From assembly GCA_947631045.1 (NCBI GenBank), contig CANRJV010000006.1:1-47466 (forward strand): DNA of 47,466 nucleotides, read 5' to 3'. The notes beneath the pieces were generated by a model. It worked only from the letters and a program-made list of their open reading frames with translations. It had not been told where the DNA came from and did no database searches. Position numbers and translations under genes: made by a program. This DNA comes from an uncultured Bacilli bacterium. GTDB taxonomy: Bacteria; Bacillota_I; Bacilli_A; RF39; UBA660. Below, piece by piece: positions 183 through 10,353 of this stretch. The first letter of the stretch is position 1, and each line of letters starts with the position of its first letter.

Positions 183-1127
183 TTATATTTTTTCCTTAAT
201 ATTATTTAATAATTTAAATGATGTTATATATATTCCTTTATCATTTATATATTTCATAACATATTTATCTTTTTCTTTAACTATTAGTATTCCTTCCGTT
301 TTAGAATGGTGTTCTTTTTTTATATTTTTATCTATATAATCCATATAAAATTTTACTTGACCTATTTGTGATGGTTTATATTCTTCGTTTTTAACCTCTA
401 CAACGACATACGCATTAATTTCTAAATTAAAGAATAATAAATCTGTATGATAAGTTTTTGAATTTATTTTTAATGGATATTCATGGCCTGCAAGTGTGAA
501 TCCTGTTCCTAATTGTAAAAATCTCTGTTCGAGCATTTCGATGAGCAACTTATGAATAGCTTTCTCATTTAAGTTATTTATGTCTTTATCTGTCTTAATA
601 ATAATTGGGTCTTTAATCATATCTGATAATGCTAAATCAGATTTATCTTCATTTGATATTAATTTAATATTTTCTTTATCAGCATAGGAAAGTCTATCAA
701 AAGCATTATCTTTTATCTCATTAATTAATTCTCGACTAGAAAGGCTATTTAAAATAATTTGATTAATGTAATAATTTCTTTCGTTTTCATTTTTAATAGG
801 TAATAACTTAACAATATGAGACCATGTTAATTTGGCGAGCACTGCTCGCCAAATTGGAAATAATTGATAAAATTTTCTCATATCTCTCATATTTCTACCA
901 CTGTAACCATTACCATATTCTTTAGAAAATATTTCCGACCATTTTTTAATTAGGTTATCTCCATACTTAGCTCTTTTTTCTCCACCTTGAGCCTCAACTA
1001 ATAATTTTCCAATATGCCATTTAGCCATTAAGTCTTCATAATTATTTTTATATTCTCTGACTTTTTTATTTACTTCGGTATTTTCAATAATATTTCTTAT
1101 TTCATTAAAATAATCTTGTTCATGCAT
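183..1127 (-). CDS. DUF1016/YhcG-type PDDEXK nuclease, copy 1
   Basis: A 314-residue protein with the two-part build of the DUF1016 (YhcG) family. The N-terminal half (about residues 1-150) is a helical DUF1016_N domain with the family hallmark LTWSH. The C-terminal half (about 180-310) is a PDDEXK-like nuclease fold with TDLLFFN followed by VVVEVKNEE, that is the D...ExK metal-binding residues. The ATG follows GGAGGA at good spacing. Three paralogues lie directly upstream, each with its own promoter. Family members often sit near restriction-modification genes or mobile DNA, but none is seen here. The role is unknown; a DNA-processing or defence nuclease is inferred. A 27-nt palindrome lies inside the gene at 829-855. 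Confidence 0.9.
   Translation of the reverse strand: MHEQDYFNEIRNIIENTEVNKKVREYKNNYEDLMAKWHIGKLLVEAQGGEKRAKYGDNLIKKWSEIFSKEYGNGYSGRNMRDMRKFYQLFPIWRAVLAKLTWSHIVKLLPIKNENERNYYINQIILNSLSSRELINEIKDNAFDRLSYADKENIKLISNEDKSDLALSDMIKDPIIIKTDKDINNLNEKAIHKLLIEMLEQRFLQLGTGFTLAGHEYPLKINSKTYHTDLLFFNLEINAYVVVEVKNEEYKPSQIGQVKFYMDYIDKNIKKEHHSKTEGILIVKEKDKYVMKYINDKGIYITSFKLLNNIKEKI
829..855. repeat. 27-nt palindrome inside DUF1016 copy 1
   Basis: Two perfectly complementary 13-base arms (AATTTGGCGAGCA and its complement) flank one central base. It encodes the IWRAVLAKL stretch just before LTWSH. Arm sequence differs from the other three copies, but ends (AATT) and centre (CA-N-TG) are shared. Confidence 0.97.
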
Positions 1128-1238
1128 AATAATTCCTCCATTGAGGATGTATTATAACAAACATGATATGGTTATTTTGTCGGTTTTTGTCGAAAATATT
1201 AAAAAAGAAGAAATTTTCACTAAATATAATCTTAACTA

Positions 1239-1808
1239 TTATATTTTTTCCTTAATATTATTTAATAATTTAAATGATGTTATATATATTCCTTTGTCAT
1301 TTATATATTTCATAACATATTTATCTTTTTCTTTAGTTATTAATTTAATATTTTCTTTATCAGCATAGGAAAGTCTATCAAAAGCTTTATTTTTTATTTC
1401 ATTTCTTAATTCTCTTACCGATAAATTATTTAAGATAACTTGATTAATATAATAATTTCTTTCATTTTCATTTTTAATTGGTAATAACTTAAGATAATGA
1501 GTCCAACTTAATTGTGAAATCACTGATTTCACAATTGGAAATGATAAATAAAATTGGCGATAAAACATTAAATTTCTTTTTGAATAATTTTTACCATAAT
1601 CTTTAACAAATATTTCTGACCATCTTTTTATTAAGTTATCACCATACTTGGCTCTTTTTTCTCCACCTTGAGCTTCTACTAATAATTTACCAATATTCCA
1701 TTTGGCCATTAAATCTTCATAATTATTTTTGTATTCTCTGACTCTTTTATTTACTTCCGTATTTTCAATAATACTTTTTATTTCATTAAAATAATCTTGT
1801 TCATGCAT
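1239..1808 (-). CDS. DUF1016 copy 2, nuclease domain deleted
   Basis: A 189-residue paralogue keeping the whole DUF1016_N half (LSWTH motif) and the last ~30 residues of the family, but lacking the ~125 residues between LIT and KEKDKYVMKYI. The missing piece contains both nuclease motifs (TDLLFF and VEVK). The join stays in frame and lies at a TTATTAAT-like stretch found at both borders in the intact copies, so a short-homology deletion is likely. I start at the ATG after GGAGGAAATATTT; the in-frame ATG 15 bases upstream is part of that ribosome site. It may be an inactive remnant or a nuclease-less partner of the neighbouring copies. Carries its own palindrome at 1510-1536. Confidence 0.8.
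   Translation of the reverse strand: MHEQDYFNEIKSIIENTEVNKRVREYKNNYEDLMAKWNIGKLLVEAQGGEKRAKYGDNLIKRWSEIFVKDYGKNYSKRNLMFYRQFYLSFPIVKSVISQLSWTHYLKLLPIKNENERNYYINQVILNNLSVRELRNEIKNKAFDRLSYADKENIKLITKEKDKYVMKYINDKGIYITSFKLLNNIKEKI
1510..1536. repeat. 27-nt palindrome inside DUF1016 copy 2
   Basis: Arms of 13 bases (AATTGTGAAATCA and its complement) around one base, encoding IVKSVISQL at the same codons as in copy 1. Confidence 0.97.
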
Positions 1809-1908
1809 AAATATTTCCTCCATTGAGGATGTATTATAACAAACATGATATATTTATTTTGTCGGTTTTTGTCGAAGATATTAAAAAAAGAAATATTTCA
1901 CTAATTAT

Positions 1909-2856
1909 TTATATTTTTTCTTTCATATTATTTAATAATTTAAATGATGTTATATATATTCCTTTATCATTTATATACTTCATAACATATTCATCTTTTT
2001 CTTTAACTATTAATATACCTTCAGTCTTAGAATGATGTTCTTTTTTTATGTTCTTATCAATATAATCCATATAAAATTTTACTTGGCCTATTTGCGATGG
2101 TTTATATTCTTCGTTTTTAACCTCTACAACGACAAAAGAATTTATTTCATAGTTAAAAAATAATAAATCCGTATGATAAGTTTTATTATTTATTTTCAAT
2201 GGATATTCATGACCTATTAAAGCAAATCCACTACCTAATTCCAAGAATCCATTTTCAATCATTTCAATAAGTAATTTATGAATAGCCTTTTCATTTAAGT
2301 TATTAATATCTTTGTCAGTTTTTATAATAATTGGGTCTTTAATCATATCTGATAACGTTAAATTATATTTATCTTCATCGTCAGTTATTAATTTAATATT
2401 CTCTTTATCAGCATAAGATAATCTTTCAAAAGCTTTATTTTTTATCTCATTTCTTAGTTCTCTTACCGATAAATTATTTAATATAATTTGATTAATATAA
2501 TAGTTTCTTTCGTTTTCATTTTTTATTGATAACAACTCTACAATATGAGACCAGCTTAATTGTCCAGACAGTGTCTGGACAATTGGAAAATTCATAAAAA
2601 ATTGTCGCATATAAAACATGTTACTTCGACTATATTGTTTTCCATACTCTTTAGAAAATATTTCTGACCATTTTTTAATTAATCCATCACCATATTTAGC
2701 TCTTTTTTCTCCACCTTGAGCTTCTACTAATAATTTACCAATATTCCATTTGGCCATTAAATCTTCATAATTATTTTTGTATTCTCTGACTCTTTTATTT
2801 ACTTCCGTATTTTCAATAATACTTTTTATTTCATTAAAATAATCTTGTTCATGCAT
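1909..2856 (-). CDS. DUF1016/YhcG-type PDDEXK nuclease, copy 3
   Basis: A 315-residue full-length paralogue: DUF1016_N with LSWSH, then a PDDEXK core with TDLLFFN and VVVEVKNEE, then the common C-terminus. It is nearly identical to copy 4 over long stretches but differs at exactly the palindrome codons (2558-2584). The start is the ATG after GGAGGAAATATTT; the upstream in-frame ATG overlaps the Shine-Dalgarno sequence. The upstream gap repeats the promoter region of the other copies, so the copy is probably transcribed independently. Function inferred only from the family. Confidence 0.9.
   Translation of the reverse strand: MHEQDYFNEIKSIIENTEVNKRVREYKNNYEDLMAKWNIGKLLVEAQGGEKRAKYGDGLIKKWSEIFSKEYGKQYSRSNMFYMRQFFMNFPIVQTLSGQLSWSHIVELLSIKNENERNYYINQIILNNLSVRELRNEIKNKAFERLSYADKENIKLITDDEDKYNLTLSDMIKDPIIIKTDKDINNLNEKAIHKLLIEMIENGFLELGSGFALIGHEYPLKINNKTYHTDLLFFNYEINSFVVVEVKNEEYKPSQIGQVKFYMDYIDKNIKKEHHSKTEGILIVKEKDEYVMKYINDKGIYITSFKLLNNMKEKI
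2558..2584. repeat. 27-nt palindrome inside DUF1016 copy 3
   Basis: Arms of 13 bases (AATTGTCCAGACA and its complement) around one base, encoding IVQTLSGQL. Confidence 0.97.
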
Positions 2857-2956
2857 AAATATTTCCTCCATTGAGGATGTATTATAACAAACATGATATA
2901 TTTATTTTGTCGGTTTTTGTCGAAGATATTAAAAAAAGAAATATTTCACTAATTAT

Positions 2957-3904
2957 TTATATTTTTTCTTTCATATTATTTAATAATTTAAATGATGTTA
3001 TATATATTCCTTTATCATTTATATACTTCATAACATATTCATCTTTTTCTTTGACTATTAATATTCCTTCAGTCTTAGAATGATGTTCTTTTTTTATGTT
3101 CTTATCAATATAATCCATATAAAATTTTACTTGTCCTATTTGCGATGGTTTATATTCTTCGTTTTTAACCTCTACAACGACAAAAGCATTTATTTCATAA
3201 TTAAAGAATAATAAATCAGTATGATAAGTTTTTGAATTTATTTTTAATGGATATTCATGGCCTGCAAGTGTGAATCCCAAACCTAACTCTAAAAATCTTT
3301 CCTCTAGCATTTCGATAAGTAACTTATGAATAGCCTTTTCATTTAAATTATTTATGTCTTTATTTGTCTTAATAATAATTGGATCTTTAATCATGTCAGA
3401 AAGAGTTAAATTATATTTATTTTCATCATTAGTTATTAATTTAATATTTTCTTTATCAGCATAGGAAAGTCTATCAAAAGCTTTACTTTTAATTTCATTA
3501 ATTAATTCTCTTTTAGACAAATTATTTAAAATAACTTGATTAATATAATAATTCCTTTCATTTTCATTTTTAATTGGTAATAATTTAATGATATGAGACC
3601 ATGTTAATTGTCCAACCAGTGGTTGGACAATTGGAAAATTCATAAAAAATTGTCGCATATAAAACATGTTACTTCGACTATATTGTTTTCCATACTCTTT
3701 AGAAAATATTTCTGACCATTTTTTAATTAAGTTATCTCCATACTTGGCTCTTTTTTCTCCTCCTTGGGCCTCAACTAATAATTTTCCAATATGCCATTTA
3801 GCCATTAAGTCTTCATAATTATTTTTATATTCTCTGACTTTTTTATTTACTTCGGTATTTTCAATAATACTTTTTATTTCATTAAAATAATCTTGTTCAT
3901 GCAT
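2957..3904 (-). CDS. DUF1016/YhcG-type PDDEXK nuclease, copy 4
   Basis: A 315-residue, promoter-proximal member of the tandem array, with LTWSH in the N-terminal domain and TDLLFFN...VVVEVKNEE in the nuclease core. GGAGGAATTATT precedes the ATG, as in copy 1. Copies 1 and 4 share several variants (for example the HIGKLL and AGHEYPL segments) while copies 3 and 4 share others, so the array has exchanged segments by gene conversion. The palindrome is at 3606-3632. It is transcribed away from the unrecognised gene at 3995-5059, which has the same orientation and lies 90 bp upstream. Confidence 0.9.
   Translation of the reverse strand: MHEQDYFNEIKSIIENTEVNKKVREYKNNYEDLMAKWHIGKLLVEAQGGEKRAKYGDNLIKKWSEIFSKEYGKQYSRSNMFYMRQFFMNFPIVQPLVGQLTWSHIIKLLPIKNENERNYYINQVILNNLSKRELINEIKSKAFDRLSYADKENIKLITNDENKYNLTLSDMIKDPIIIKTNKDINNLNEKAIHKLLIEMLEERFLELGLGFTLAGHEYPLKINSKTYHTDLLFFNYEINAFVVVEVKNEEYKPSQIGQVKFYMDYIDKNIKKEHHSKTEGILIVKEKDEYVMKYINDKGIYITSFKLLNNMKEKI
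3606..3632. repeat. 27-nt palindrome inside DUF1016 copy 4
   Basis: Arms of 13 bases (AATTGTCCAACCA and its complement) around one base, encoding IVQPLVGQL. It differs from copy 3 at two positions in each arm, and all four changes keep the pairing. Confidence 0.97.
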
Positions 3905-3965
3905 AATAATTCCTCCAATGAGGATGTATTATAACAAACATGTTATGATTATTTTGTCGAGTTTA
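3905..3965 (-). promoter_or_regulatory. Promoter region of DUF1016 copy 4
   Basis: Reading the minus strand, two CGAC(A/T)AAA repeats about 9 bases apart are followed by an extended -10 box TGTTATAAT and then the ribosome site. The same arrangement occurs before copies 1-3 (about 1130-1200, 1810-1880 and 2858-2925). No good -35 is seen, which fits an extended -10 promoter or activation through the repeats. Confidence 0.5.
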
Positions 3966-5201: not shown

Positions 5202-6587
5202 TTAGTTATTTTCTTTTCTTTTTGCAGAGAATCCAACAGTTAATGCACTAACTAGTCCTAAACTAGCGTATACAAGAATGTTATCGTTAGTTTTTGGTAC
5301 ATTAGGTACATCAGGATTTGTTGTTTCTTCTGGAGCTGTTTGCGTTCCGTCTCCAGTATTTGGATCATCAACTTTAGCGTTGATTACTTTATAGTTACCA
5401 TCTTCAGTAACTGTAGCACCTTCAGCGACTACATAATTTTGAACTGTAGCAGCAGATTGAGTAGCATCACCATTAGCTCTATCGCCAATAATTGCACTTA
5501 AATATCTACCACCAGTTAAGATACTTTTAAAGACATCTTCTTCAGGATCATTGTTTAAACCTGTTAATAAACTTGAAGTGATAAAGATTGCTGGTAATTG
5601 TTTACCATTTAATTTACCACTATTAAATGTACCATTAGTGATTTTTGGAATAATCTTACCAGATAATAAATTAACAGCATAATATCCTTTTGAAGCAATT
5701 GTTCCGCCATTAATAGTTAATGCACCTTCATCACCAGTATCAGTGAATACACCAGCTCCAATAGTATTATGAGCAGCAGTTAAAGTACCATTATTAATAG
5801 TTACATTCCCAGTATTCATATAAATTACGGCTTTTGCAGTTGAATATAAAGTACCATTATTAATTACTACATTTATAGGTTTAGTAATTTCTAATACTCT
5901 ATCTGAAATATAATATTCTCCACCTTCAATTGTAACTGTAGCATTACTTCCACCAACTTGAGCAGGAGCAGCATATGTACTTAAGCCAATTAATTTAGCA
6001 GCAGATGGAGCTTGTCTAGTTCCTACTTTTGCATTTAATGTTACATTAGCAGTTGCAGCAGTAACATCAACAATTGTAGTGCCAGCGCTAAGTTCAGCAC
6101 CTCCATTAATTTTTACTATACCTTTAGTAGAAATTAATGTATTGCCACTAGTTGATTTTCCAATCAATTTTACATTTCCATCAACTTCTAAAGTTCCATT
6201 ATTAGCAACTGTTAAAGTTCTTGTTGTAACTTCACCAGCACCAGTGAATTTTAAACTAGCATTAGCTTTTACACTAAGTGAAGTGTTAGATAAATCTAAT
6301 TTGTATCCATCTAAGTCAACTATAATACTACCTTCAATATCACCTTTAGATAATGCACCAAAATTACCTCCAGTAATCTCTTTAAGTAATTTTATAGTTC
6401 CACCATTTTGATAAGCAGCATCCCATGCAGCACCAAATGATCTATAACCATCACCATTTAAAGTTACTGTACAAGTTCCAGCATTATCATCATCAGGCAT
6501 TGTACAACCATCACCAGTAGCATGTACACCTGTAGCCATTACTAGGAATGCTAGTAATGAAATCGCAAACATTTTTAAATTTTTCAT
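5202..6587 (-). CDS. Sortase-anchored beta-helix-like surface protein A
   Basis: A 461-residue secreted protein. A signal peptide begins MKNLKMFAIS and ends near VHA-TGD. The body (about 60-390) consists of short strands with repeated TINNGTLT/TIEGGEYY motifs, typical of right-handed parallel beta-helix adhesins. A Thr/Pro-rich stalk follows, then VPKTNDN, a hydrophobic helix and KRKENN, a class B-type wall-sorting signal. The conserved paralogue start (MKNLKMF) is used; a longer in-frame ATG 33 bases upstream lies before the ribosome site. Unlike most paralogues its promoter has no G tract, and no 3' UTR element follows it. It is the likely constitutive member of the set (inference). Confidence 0.9.
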   Translation of the reverse strand: MKNLKMFAISLLAFLVMATGVHATGDGCTMPDDDNAGTCTVTLNGDGYRSFGAAWDAAYQNGGTIKLLKEITGGNFGALSKGDIEGSIIVDLDGYKLDLSNTSLSVKANASLKFTGAGEVTTRTLTVANNGTLEVDGNVKLIGKSTSGNTLISTKGIVKINGGAELSAGTTIVDVTAATANVTLNAKVGTRQAPSAAKLIGLSTYAAPAQVGGSNATVTIEGGEYYISDRVLEITKPINVVINNGTLYSTAKAVIYMNTGNVTINNGTLTAAHNTIGAGVFTDTGDEGALTINGGTIASKGYYAVNLLSGKIIPKITNGTFNSGKLNGKQLPAIFITSSLLTGLNNDPEEDVFKSILTGGRYLSAIIGDRANGDATQSAATVQNYVVAEGATVTEDGNYKVINAKVDDPNTGDGTQTAPEETTNPDVPNVPKTNDNILVYASLGLVSALTVGFSAKRKENN

Positions 6588-6619
6588 TCTCTCTCTATAC
6601 CTTTCCTTTCTATGTGTCA

Positions 6620-6649
6620 ATTATACTTCACTTCTTTTCTTTTTGTCAA
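6620..6649 (-). promoter_or_regulatory. Promoter of surface gene A (no G tract)
   Basis: TTGACA, 18 bases of mixed A/G, TATAAT on the minus strand. It matches the paralogue promoters in both boxes but has ordinary sequence where they carry poly-G. Confidence 0.8.
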
Positions 6650-6946: not shown

Positions 6947-8311
6947 CTAATTGTTTTCTTTTCTTTTTGCTGTGAATCTAACACTTATTGCACTTACTAG
7001 ACCTAAACCAGCGTATACAAGAATGTTATCGTTAGTTTTTGGTACATTAGGTACATCTGGATTTGTTGTTCCCGGATCTGTTGTTTGCGTTCCATCTCCA
7101 GTATTTTGTTGATCATCTACTTTTTGAGCATTGATTACTTTATAGTTACCTTCTTCAGTAACTGTTAATCCTTCTTTTACTAAATCATCAGTTAAGATAA
7201 TTGTTTTTCCTTTTTCGTCTACAACTTTAATATCAGCAATTTGATTTAAATATCTTCCACCACTTAGGATTCCTTTTAAAACACTGCTTATAACAACTTT
7301 ATCATCTTTAGTTTCAGTAAGAGCAAAGCTACTACCAAATTTGATTGCAGTAACTCCTTCAGCATCTTTACCATTAAATGTTCCACCAGAAATAGCATAA
7401 GCAAGTTTTGCACGTTCAATAACTAAAGCACTAGTATGCTTAGAAGTTAAAGTACCACCAGTGATTGTTAATTTACCATTAGCAGCACCAATATCTGGTG
7501 TTCCAGCATAAGTTTGTAAAGCAGCTCCTCCCTTAGCAGTAATTGTGCCTCCACTAATTGTTACGTCAGCATCATAAACTTTAACAGCTGATGAACTATT
7601 AGCAGTAATTTCACCACCTTCAAAATTTAAAGCAATACCTTTTTTAGCATATAATGCAGCTGCAGCAGTATTATATGTTCCACCTTTGATATTTACACTA
7701 GCAGCATTTTCACCTAATACTGGTTCATTAGCAATATTTACATCAATAATGCTCTTAACATTATAAGTACCGCTTGTTAATGTAACAACACTATCATGAG
7801 CAGCTACATTAGTTAAAGCAACAGAAGCCGCAGTAACATTTGAAGATACAAGATTAACATTTCCTCCGGCAACATGAATTAATACATTACTTGTTAAACC
7901 GGCAGCATTAACTGTCGCACCATCAAGAGTTAATGAACCTCCTTTTTCAACTGTAAATGGAATAGTATTAGTAGTAACATCAACTTTACCTTTAACAGTT
8001 AAAGCAGCGCCATCTTTAACAGTGAATGAACCACCATTAATAGTTAAAGTATATTCACCTAAATTAATAACAGCATTTTCAGCAGTTACATTATTGGCAC
8101 CTGTTATTGTGGCATTCTTATAAAGTACTAATTCTCCTCCATCTTCTAAAACAGCGTTAATAGCATCACTAGCCGAAGCATATCCTTCTCCATCAACAGT
8201 AGCTTCACAATCGTTGCCAACTGTGCAAGAGACAGTGCCAGCAGCTGAAACGCCAGTAGTCATTACTAACATACTTAGTAATGCAATTGCAAACATTTTT
8301 AAATTTTTCAT
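6947..8311 (-). CDS. Sortase-anchored beta-helix-like surface protein B
   Basis: A 454-residue paralogue of protein A. The signal peptide begins MKNLKMFAIALL and is cut near VSA-AGT. A body of beta-helix coils follows (TISGGTIT, TITGGTLTS, GGTYNT), then a linker of the type DGTQTTDPGT, then VPKTNDN, a membrane helix and KRKENN. The ATG is the one conserved in all paralogues, after GGAAAGG; the nearby upstream GTG is out of frame. The promoter carries a 9-bp G tract and the 3' side a structured UTR element. Probably an adhesin or coat protein; the ligand is unknown. Confidence 0.92.
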   Translation of the reverse strand: MKNLKMFAIALLSMLVMTTGVSAAGTVSCTVGNDCEATVDGEGYASASDAINAVLEDGGELVLYKNATITGANNVTAENAVINLGEYTLTINGGSFTVKDGAALTVKGKVDVTTNTIPFTVEKGGSLTLDGATVNAAGLTSNVLIHVAGGNVNLVSSNVTAASVALTNVAAHDSVVTLTSGTYNVKSIIDVNIANEPVLGENAASVNIKGGTYNTAAAALYAKKGIALNFEGGEITANSSSAVKVYDADVTISGGTITAKGGAALQTYAGTPDIGAANGKLTITGGTLTSKHTSALVIERAKLAYAISGGTFNGKDAEGVTAIKFGSSFALTETKDDKVVISSVLKGILSGGRYLNQIADIKVVDEKGKTIILTDDLVKEGLTVTEEGNYKVINAQKVDDQQNTGDGTQTTDPGTTNPDVPNVPKTNDNILVYAGLGLVSAISVRFTAKRKENN

Positions 8312-8524: not shown

Positions 8525-10321
8525 TTAATTATGTTGTTTTTTCTTTTTTAGTAGAATTGTTATTCCACTTAATGACATTACTGCCATTACACTAGGAATT
8601 GCAATGTCCATTGATGAAGTTTTAGGAACATCTATTACTTCACTTGCTTTTAATGCAACAATGAATGGTGATAATTCATCTACTGTAATAGTTACTTTTC
8701 CATCTTCTACTTTTCTTTCCCATTTTTCATAAGTGTTATCATGTTTCTTATGTAAAACATAGGCTGTCTTACCATTATTAGCATTTCCTAGATCAAATGT
8801 AATTGTTAAGGCCCTTCCTAATTCTCCATTATCTCTAACGTGGAATTCATACATATCAAATAATTCAGTATAACCGCTATTAGTAGCCATCTTAATCATT
8901 TCTTCATAAGTACTATCTTTTTCCGAAACAATATTTCCTTCTACTACTAAGCCATCTCCCGTATCTTTAAATGTTACTCCTTCAACAATTGTTGTTTGTT
9001 TTTCTTCGGGTTCTTTTTCTACATTTTCTATAGAACTAGAGTAACTTGGAGTCGTTATAGTTCCATTAGTTGCAACATCTACTCCATTAACTTCGACTTT
9101 ACCTTCGCCATTATTTTTTACTGTTACGTTTCCATTGACTGGATTAACATTTAAATTTCCTTGCAAAACTTCTACTGTAGATCCACTTGGAGCATTCGTT
9201 GCAGCATTTTCAGCTTGTGTACCTACATAGTACGTTCCACCAATTTTAACTTCAGGTACATCACTCTCAGAAACATAAATTGATTCAACTTTTTTATCGA
9301 ATTTACCGCCAGATACTTCAATCTCTTTTTTTGCATTGTCTGCTGGTTTATCTTTACCATCATATGCTAAAAGAGCAGTGTCATTTTTAACATTAAAAGT
9401 ACCACCATCGATAGTAACTTTAGCTTCGCTTGGATATGATTCAGTATTGTCAACAACTACACCTATTCCACCTTTGAATTTAACCAATTCTCCATTTTCT
9501 TTAGCGTCGCCTACACTATATTCTTTATCAGACTCGCTAGTTGCATTTATGATTGCATCGCCACTAATTTTAACTTCACCAGCTCTAGCAACAACACCAA
9601 ATACACCTGTGATTGTTCCACCAGTAATATTTAATTTTCCATCTTGTGGATGATATATAGCGGCACTTTCAGTACTAGTAATTGTTCCACCTTTAATATT
9701 AATGGTAGAATTTTTTGTTAAATTGTCACCACTTTGAGCTCCATTACTAGATATAGCAAAACTCTTTGAAGTAATTGTCCCGCCTTCAACATTAACTATT
9801 GCATTTGTACCAAATACAGTTATTCCACCATCTCCCTTAATATTGGCAGTTCCTTTAACATTTAAAGTTCCGCCCTTAATTTGAATAGCAGTAAAACCTA
9901 CTCCTTTATCATTTTGGCCTACTCCTATGTAATTACCACTTTCTAAAGTAATTTCACCAGCATCAATCATAACGCTAGCACCATTTTCAGAATGTTCTAC
10001 TGTTCCTTTATGTTCTGTTGAACTATCTTTTATAATTACAGTACCACCATTTACGTAAATAACTACATTTCCACCCGTTCTATTAATATTGTAACCATTT
10101 AAATCTATTGTTAGAGTATGAGTGGTATTATTAATAGTTAATAGACTATCTAAAGTTATTGTACCGGTTAATTGAACTTCAACATCTTCACTAGATAATT
10201 TTTCTATAGCATTTTTAAAATTATCTTTATCTCCTACTTTTTGAACTTCAGCCTTAACCCCAATAGTAGCCATAAACATCGCAAACATAGCTACTACTAA
10301 AAATTTAATTTGTTTTTTCAT
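8525..10321 (-). CDS. Sortase-anchored beta-helix-like surface protein C
   Basis: A 598-residue secreted protein with N-terminal signal peptide (MKKQIKFLVVAM...). Long beta-helix region (about 30-380) with motifs such as TITGGTIT-like coils. Then a ~130-residue C-terminal domain shared with proteins E and F (EMIKMA...ITFDLG...VTITVDELSPFIVAL). It ends with VPKTSS, a membrane helix and KKKKQHN. The inner ATG fits the paralogue pattern; an in-frame GTG nine bases upstream is an alternative start. The sorting motif has S rather than N at position five. It is the gene nearest the sortase, which is read in the same direction just upstream. Confidence 0.9.
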   Translation of the reverse strand: MKKQIKFLVVAMFAMFMATIGVKAEVQKVGDKDNFKNAIEKLSSEDVEVQLTGTITLDSLLTINNTTHTLTIDLNGYNINRTGGNVVIYVNGGTVIIKDSSTEHKGTVEHSENGASVMIDAGEITLESGNYIGVGQNDKGVGFTAIQIKGGTLNVKGTANIKGDGGITVFGTNAIVNVEGGTITSKSFAISSNGAQSGDNLTKNSTINIKGGTITSTESAAIYHPQDGKLNITGGTITGVFGVVARAGEVKISGDAIINATSESDKEYSVGDAKENGELVKFKGGIGVVVDNTESYPSEAKVTIDGGTFNVKNDTALLAYDGKDKPADNAKKEIEVSGGKFDKKVESIYVSESDVPEVKIGGTYYVGTQAENAATNAPSGSTVEVLQGNLNVNPVNGNVTVKNNGEGKVEVNGVDVATNGTITTPSYSSSIENVEKEPEEKQTTIVEGVTFKDTGDGLVVEGNIVSEKDSTYEEMIKMATNSGYTELFDMYEFHVRDNGELGRALTITFDLGNANNGKTAYVLHKKHDNTYEKWERKVEDGKVTITVDELSPFIVALKASEVIDVPKTSSMDIAIPSVMAVMSLSGITILLKKKKQHN

Positions 10322-10353
10322 TCTCTTCACAAACCTTTCCTTCCTATGTTTGA

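Follow-up and report, generated by a model that had tools for sequence, protein, structure and literature searches.

Background

Autogenous operators with many mutually independent specificities are known from the C proteins of restriction-modification (R-M) systems and from phage immunity repressors. Here, we describe palindromes in genes of the YhcG/DUF1016 family, each of which is probably the cognate DNA-binding site of its own gene's product, with an autoregulatory operator as the most likely role. The locus is a stretch of 47,466 nt (hereafter the window, contig CANRJV010000006.1 of assembly GCA_947631045.1) from an uncultured Bacilli bacterium (RF39; UBA660), in which four DUF1016 genes stand in tandem on the minus strand.

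YhcG/DUF1016 proteins are common and present in Escherichia coli K-12. The family has been predicted to consist of nucleases with an N-terminal domain without known fold (PMC1189080), has been described in a mobile-element context (PMC4316617), and deletion of yhcG in E. coli is synthetic-lethal with replication mutants (PMC2672614). In this open-access literature on DUF1016/COG4804 (PMC1189080, PMC2672614, PMC4316617), no palindromic self-site, ParB-like domain or specificity code is described. In ParB-parS, the recognition helix a4 together with helices a6 and a8 contacts the palindrome, through residues that include R173, G201 and R204 (PMC7383237). By their domains (PF17761 and PF06250), the window genes are members of the family known as YhcG, COG4804, PF06250 or PADLOC PDC-S02, the last being a candidate phage-defence family and the best PADLOC match of these genes.

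Four probable self-sites and their occurrence across the family

All four window genes encode DUF1016_N (PF17761), with scores of 110-114 bits against a Pfam cut-off of 32.8. Copy 1 (183..1127, 314 aa), copy 3 (1909..2871, 320 aa) and copy 4 (2957..3904, 315 aa) additionally encode the YhcG_C PD-(D/E)XK nuclease domain (PF06250) with its D...ExK motif, located at 1942..2349 in copy 3, and their products are putative nucleases. Copy 2 (1239..1823, 194 aa) has lost the nuclease domain through an in-frame deletion, leaving DUF1016_N alone, and retains its self-site. The whole genome holds 11 DUF1016_N matches.

A sequence-only reading of the window had pointed to a 27-nt perfect palindrome in each gene, with two 13-base arms around a single base, AATT ends and a CA-N-TG centre, and all four are indeed present on the minus strand: AATTTGGCGAGCA-N-TGCTCGCCAAATT in copy 1 (829..855, codons of PIWRAVLAKL), AATTGTGAAATCA-N-TGATTTCACAATT in copy 2 (1510..1536, PIVKSVISQL), AATTGTCCAGACA-N-TGTCTGGACAATT in copy 3 (2558..2584, PIVQTLSGQL) and AATTGTCCAACCA-N-TGGTTGGACAATT in copy 4 (3606..3632, PIVQPLVGQL). 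Within the window no two copies share the same inner seven bases, as the sequence-only reading stated, although copies 3 and 4 differ at only two positions per arm; the palindrome of copy 4 is found unchanged in a paralogue on contig C5 of the same genome. Besides the four self-sites, the window contains no palindrome with arms of at least 11 and a loop of at most 3, and second matches of the four half-sites in the window were no better than control, except for the cross-match between copies 3 and 4.

The wider gene set comprised relatives of the window genome, other Bacillota, E. coli, viral contigs, and plasmids and phages of other phyla (Fusobacteriota, Cyanobacteriota, Pseudomonadota, Actinomycetota, Deinococcota, Bacteroidota and the Wolbachia phage WO). 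It is dominated by metagenome-assembled genomes of gut Bacilli, and the other phyla contribute only single genes, taken from plasmids, from phages and from E. coli. For the 222 distinct DUF1016 genes with both anchors, perfect odd-centred palindromes were sought between the helix MRxFY and LSWSH, and compared with 50 synonymous-codon shuffles per gene and with other segments of the same genes. Arms of at least 8 were found in 61% of the genes vs 0.8% of the shuffles and 0.3% of the other segments, and arms of at least 13 in 27.5% vs 0.009% and none, respectively. With mismatches permitted, 206 of the 222 genes have the palindrome, among them E. coli yhcG and members from seven phyla. Its centre is at codon position 1 in 203 genes, and in 173 it lies exactly 12 nt ahead of the L of LSWSH. 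Among 30 ParB-family genes found by profile search in the same genomes, a single palindrome was detected, an AT run. The earlier estimate that the palindromes are far beyond chance is thereby borne out, chance and codon bias being ruled out as their source by the shuffles and the other gene segments; homologues elsewhere carry the excess self-complementarity whose lack was to have counted against the sequence-only reading.

If the palindromes were maintained as RNA hairpins in the transcript, G-U pairs should be tolerated and A-C pairs not. The broken pairs in the 173 canonical sites comprise 33 G-T and 32 A-C, and this near-equality places the constraint at the DNA level rather than in RNA. 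The same lack of a G-T bias leaves the DNA or RNA cruciform offered by the sequence-only reading unsupported, and helix-turn-helix (HTH) domains of the ParB-like kind read ordinary double-stranded palindromes.

Several truncated genes besides copy 2 likewise keep the self-site without a nuclease domain. The genes occur on plasmids and phages, in type I R-M operons (hsdM-yhcG-hsdS) and in integrase-yhcG pairs with overlapping ends. In some relatives (L144, L149, L192, L209 and L233, for example in E. coli K-12 and on a Burkholderia plasmid), two to three tandem palindromes are present as in-frame insertions in the inter-helix loop. DUF3102, considered as a sister family, gave too few matches, two protein scans of the viral contigs returned no matches, and the pattern GATTTTCCAGACANTGTCTGGAAAATC did not occur in the search made for it.

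A code between contact residues and bases

Mutual information was calculated between each half-site base (k being the distance from the centre) and the protein columns outside the palindrome-encoded residues, using 197 genes (about 173 effective) and a background of 2513 pairs with a mean of 0.095 and a standard deviation of 0.084. The top pairs were column 72 with k8 (z 10.6), column 122 with k3 (z 10.5) and column 97 with k4 (z 9.9), followed by column 94 with k3 (z 8.1), column 69 with k7 (z 8.0) and column 73 with k6 (z 6.2). The recognition helix spans columns 67-73, where the spacing is i, i+3, i+4, while columns 94-98 and 122 begin the next DNA-facing helices. The residue-base associations are chemically sensible, with Arg or Lys matched to G and Glu to C: R69 and R/K72 both go with C (G on the opposite strand), K69, R/K97 and R/K122 with G, E72 with G (C on the opposite strand), S/T122 with C and V122 with T or A.

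A phylogenetic artefact was addressed by means of all other columns, random-column predictors, and discovery and test in separate clusters. The leading pairs were recovered separately in the cluster of the window genes' own group (97 genes) and in the 100 other genes, and a predictor with columns and frequencies taken from the own-group cluster only placed the true site of the other genes at a median rank of 4 out of 41, where 21 is expected. When no training sequence was 40% or more identical to the test protein, the true half-site had a median rank of 3 out of 82 with the contact columns, and of about 40-45 with random columns of similar entropy; the ranks in this comparison were 2-3 for contact columns and near 42 for random ones. 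This ranking used columns chosen on the whole set, which the train/test split with 41 candidates avoids.

The code is modular and visible inside one genome. The recognition-helix codons on the minus strand are SGRNMRD in copy 1 (882..902, columns 67-73, predicted to read the outer half-site bases k6-k8), SKRNLMF in copy 2 (1563..1583) and SRSNMFY in both copy 3 (2611..2631, aa 81-87 with the contacts S83, F86 and Y87) and copy 4 (3659..3679). The codons of the inner-reading residues, columns 94, 97 and 98, lie on the same strand at 807..821 in copy 1 (S, V, K), 1488..1502 in copy 2 (T, L, K), 2536..2550 in copy 3 (S108, V111, E112) and 3584..3598 in copy 4 (S, I, K), and the codon of V136 of copy 3 (column 122, the first residue of helix 136-144, predicted to read base k3) at 2464..2466. 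The shared helix SRSNMFY goes with the outer GTCC in both copies 3 and 4, while V97/E98/V122 in copy 3 go with the inner AGACA and I97/K98/K122 in copy 4 with the inner AACCA. A paralogue on another contig combines the helix SIRNMKY with I97/K98/K122, and its site is GGGC plus AACCA.

The alleles of E. coli yhcG agree with the code: the common ones have K69/R72, CGCC and the site CGCCAGACA.TGTCTGGCG, and the O102:H6-type allele has R69/W72, GTGC and the site GTGCAGACA.TGTCTGCAC. When close pairs (identity above 80% with the region left out) have different sites, their contact residues differ in 57% of comparisons, vs 3.6% in same-site pairs; the de-duplication of the dataset inflates the number and fraction of differing pairs. 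Since the bases of the palindrome can be read from the contact residues of the encoded protein, the proposals of the sequence-only reading that the palindrome is recognised by the nuclease itself and is a copy-specific self-recognition tag are strongly supported.

A ParB/Noc-like DNA-binding domain

The AlphaFold model of copy 3 has a pLDDT of 86, and that of its N-domain alone 88. In the model, S83, F86 and Y87 lie on helix 82-94, S108, V111 and E112 on helix 107-114, and V136 starts helix 136-144, with the palindrome-encoded residues 96-105 forming the connection between helices 82-94 and 107-114. Compared with the Protein Data Bank (PDB), the best 14 matches of the N-domain model are all ParB/Noc, including site-bound Noc (6y93, 7ol9), with probabilities of 0.54-0.97, and Pfam HTH_ParB is matched by 43 of 61 members at E up to 0.1. 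When the LSxGHxR of ParB is aligned to LSWSHxx by way of a Spo0J alignment, G201 and R204 stand opposite columns 94 and 97. On these models DUF1016_N appears to be a ParB/Noc-type HTH, and, when this was tested, the covarying columns fell at the positions predicted to contact DNA. No Pfam match to the N-terminal ParB/sulfiredoxin-like CTPase domain was obtained in the four window proteins, and the N-terminus of the copy 3 model is helical. The C-terminal domain resembles nucleases of the NucS/EndoMS type.

Leader sites where the internal palindrome is lacking

One clade (L001, L020-L022 and L042) has a normal HTH and no palindrome at the family's usual codons. Its residues (Y73, S94, C/I/V97, E98, V122) predict a CAGAC...GTCTG core, and each locus of the clade has exactly one such core, in AATTGGTCAGACGCGTCTGACTAATT or a close variant, directly 5' of the Shine-Dalgarno sequence, with the core centre 28 nt before the ATG in the four loci measured. 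The core was thus found as predicted by the code, in a comparison that might have failed. Further leader sites are ATTCTTCAGACGCGTCTGAAGAAT in L023 and L027, and two leader copies in L053. As the leader sites lie outside coding sequence, the coupling does not simply follow from the encoded peptide, and the idea that the palindrome merely mirrors the peptide is ruled out by the presence of the same core in noncoding leaders of clades without the internal site.

Distribution of sites in genomes

In the genome of the window, AATT-n7-CANTG-n7-AATT has nine matches, of which the eight perfect palindromes are all within DUF1016 genes and the ninth is non-palindromic. The only occurrences of CAGACN{2,3}GTCTG are within copy 3 and in the C14 gene's leader. 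Across 392 related genomes, CCAGACANTGTCTGG was found at 14 places and its reversed control at none; most of the 14 are inside DUF1016 genes by coordinates, one stands 190 nt beyond such a gene, and some of the remaining ones are terminator-like and close to chance expectation. A dispersed repeat is ruled out by these scans for the own genome and the Bacillota relatives. Copies of the palindrome flanking the gene are not general among about 200 loci.

Proposed mechanism and alternative explanations

Conservation of the site, its constraint at the DNA level, the code, the prediction of unseen sites and the confinement of the site to its own locus in the genomes scanned were all computed. On this basis the encoded protein very probably binds its own palindrome, a conclusion that is strongly supported, physical binding being inferred. 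We propose that DUF1016_N, presumably as a dimer, would read the palindrome as ordinary double-stranded DNA, with columns 67, 69, 72 and 73 of the recognition helix reading half-site bases 6-8 from the centre and columns 94, 97, 98 and 122 of the next helices reading bases 3-5. The site would occupy a tolerant loop within the domain's own codons or, in some clades, the 5' leader immediately ahead of the ribosome-binding site, so that site and specificity would be inherited together. The protein would then sit on its own gene and block its transcription wherever the gene lands, and with the site embedded in the coding sequence this control would persist even when the gene inserts into a foreign operon, as in hsdM-yhcG-hsdS or integrase-yhcG. 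With diversified specificities, paralogues and incoming relatives would form "immunity groups" independent of one another, and the specificity is most likely under diversifying selection. An operator-like site was found in or beside the own gene; its positions, ahead of the Shine-Dalgarno sequence or in the early part of the coding sequence, are ones from which a repressor would act. Autogenous control is favoured because of these positions and because nuclease-less copies retain the site, and from them autogenous repression seems somewhat more probable than its absence. A broader version, in which self-addressed genes form mutually blind immunity groups that compete in cells and mobile elements, with residents that silence or attack newcomers bearing their own address, is a speculative extension that we hold to be rather unlikely.

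Several observations weigh against this proposal. At about 290-300 nt into the coding sequence, the intragenic site is farther in than a classical operator, and the individual matches to ParB by Foldseek and PDB profile have weak E-values (best 0.02-0.3). In genome G169 (L289:1501 and 2422), a second copy of the own site, with the same flanking bases, stands 190 nt 3' of the DUF1016 gene. In E. coli (L144, L148, L242 and L243; gltD-yhcG-nanQ), the palindrome GAATTCGCCAGACTGTGTCTGGCGAATC follows gltD and GAATTCTGCAGACAGTGTCTGCAGAATC follows yhcG. Four viral contigs carry perfect extended TTCCAGACA.TGTCTGGAA palindromes (L237:5566, L238:8092, L239:5376 and L240:3210, the last directly before a ribosome-binding site) with no DUF1016 gene in the stretch fetched. 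Neither the 3' sites of E. coli and G169 nor the viral-contig palindromes are explained by simple autorepression. The DUF1016 gene of G169 has in-frame TGA codons, which suggests a TGA=Trp code, and the second palindrome (gene nt 385-406) is where broken E. coli yhcG alleles (L145, L146) stop or start, beside IS sequences.

These observations in E. coli, K-12 included, and in the viral contigs keep a role in mobility or exclusion alive. Under mobility, the palindromes would be mobility, homing or recombination sites at which the nuclease acts, thereby spreading the gene or the palindrome in the manner of REP palindromes with RAYT transposases. An E. coli strain without gltF..yhcG fits this account, as it has a single palindrome whose left flank is that of the gltD-side copy and whose right flank is that of the yhcG-side copy; K-12 yhcG has extra in-frame palindromes that are absent from O157, the helix-palindrome-helix cassette often differs between close pairs, and the palindromes in the viral contigs are isolated. 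Against it stand the lack of dispersal in the own genome, the 14 places among the 392 relatives, mostly in or beside DUF1016 genes, and the lack of a general occurrence of flanking copies in about 200 loci, which leaves general homing at flanking palindromes unsupported, with E. coli suggestive. Further, mobility does not itself explain the match between bases and contact residues in every gene, or the leader sites before the Shine-Dalgarno sequence, and we regard it as improbable. The recombination or conversion site suggested by the sequence-only reading is not shown in general, although among near-identical backbones the specificity cassette has a swapped appearance, and flanking copies are present in E. 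coli. Exclusion by a single gene, in which the resident nuclease binds incoming DNA with the same palindrome and attacks or silences it and thereby drives diversification, would be in line with the strong diversification of specificity between near-identical backbones, with membership of the candidate family PDC-S02 and with the presence of the genes on plasmids, on phages and inside type I R-M operons. The resident copy bears the same site, however, and would itself have to be protected; neither a companion methylase nor a conserved partner was seen, and the de-duplicated dataset inflates the fraction of differing pairs, which makes exclusion a decidedly unlikely account.

Two further explanations were weighed. 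An mRNA hairpin acting in attenuation or translational autoregulation could draw on the perfect inverted repeats, which could form a 12-bp stem, and on the leader copies that precede the Shine-Dalgarno sequence; the equal G-T and A-C mismatches, and the coupling of base identity to HTH residues with Arg/Lys-G chemistry, make it very improbable. Template switching is a known palindrome-perfecting process, and the palindromes might be its functionless by-product, with quasi-palindromes being kept perfect. It may indeed help both arms to change together, but it predicts neither the fixed position across phyla nor the near-absence from the 30 ParB-family genes, and neither the coupling to contact residues nor the relocation of the same core to the leader, so that as the whole explanation it has hardly any probability. 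Under the preferred explanation, recognition of each palindrome by the product of its own gene, the palindromes would constitute a large set of natural protein-site pairs, in which each gene states what its product binds, and could serve as a natural training set for protein-DNA recognition. The DNA specificity of the YhcG/DUF1016 family would become readable from sequence, which would allow direct functional assays. The palindromes would also point to a form of gene autonomy, in which operator and reader are fused in one coding sequence and diversification continues.

Neighbouring features

A short hairpin, TCCTCAATGGAGGA, overlaps the ribosome-binding site in all four window genes (1134-1147, 1816-1829, 2864-2877 and 3911-3924), and upstream of it lie a promoter-like element, TTGTTATAATAC, and a CGACAAA direct repeat. 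Elsewhere in the window, three consecutive genes (5202-6620, 6947-8311 and 8525-10330) encode putative secreted proteins that are sortase-substrate-like, with VPKTN/VPKTS, a hydrophobic tail and a basic end, and beyond them a row of minus-strand open reading frames of 440-620 aa extends up to 27006.

Comparison with known systems

The palindromes share with REP/RAYT the tie to one gene family, and in E. coli they also flank the gene. Unlike REP, they are undispersed in the genomes scanned (the own genome and 392 relatives), and they lie inside coding sequence and covary with the protein; and where RAYT is a Y1 HUH transposase, the DUF1016 genes have a PD-(D/E)XK domain, an unrelated nuclease fold. 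Rickettsia palindromic elements are similar in that they are palindromes inside open reading frames, and some yhcG alleles have extra in-frame palindromes, but those elements are 100-150 nt long, whereas the yhcG sites are about 27 nt, belong to one gene family and covary with residues of their own protein. ParB/Spo0J-parS and Noc-NBS (PMC7383237) share an HTH of the same fold class and a dyad-symmetric site, with the recognition helix at the outer bases and the following helices at the inner ones. In contrast to ParB/Noc, the DUF1016 proteins are without the CTPase domain and are fused to a PD-(D/E)XK nuclease, and their site differs between genes and lies within the codons of their own DNA-binding domain or in the leader; palindromes of this kind are absent from the 30 ParB-family genes found in the same genomes. 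From the C proteins and phage repressors, finally, the DUF1016 genes differ in that the candidate operator lies among the very codons of the DNA-binding domain and in that the protein is a nuclease fusion.

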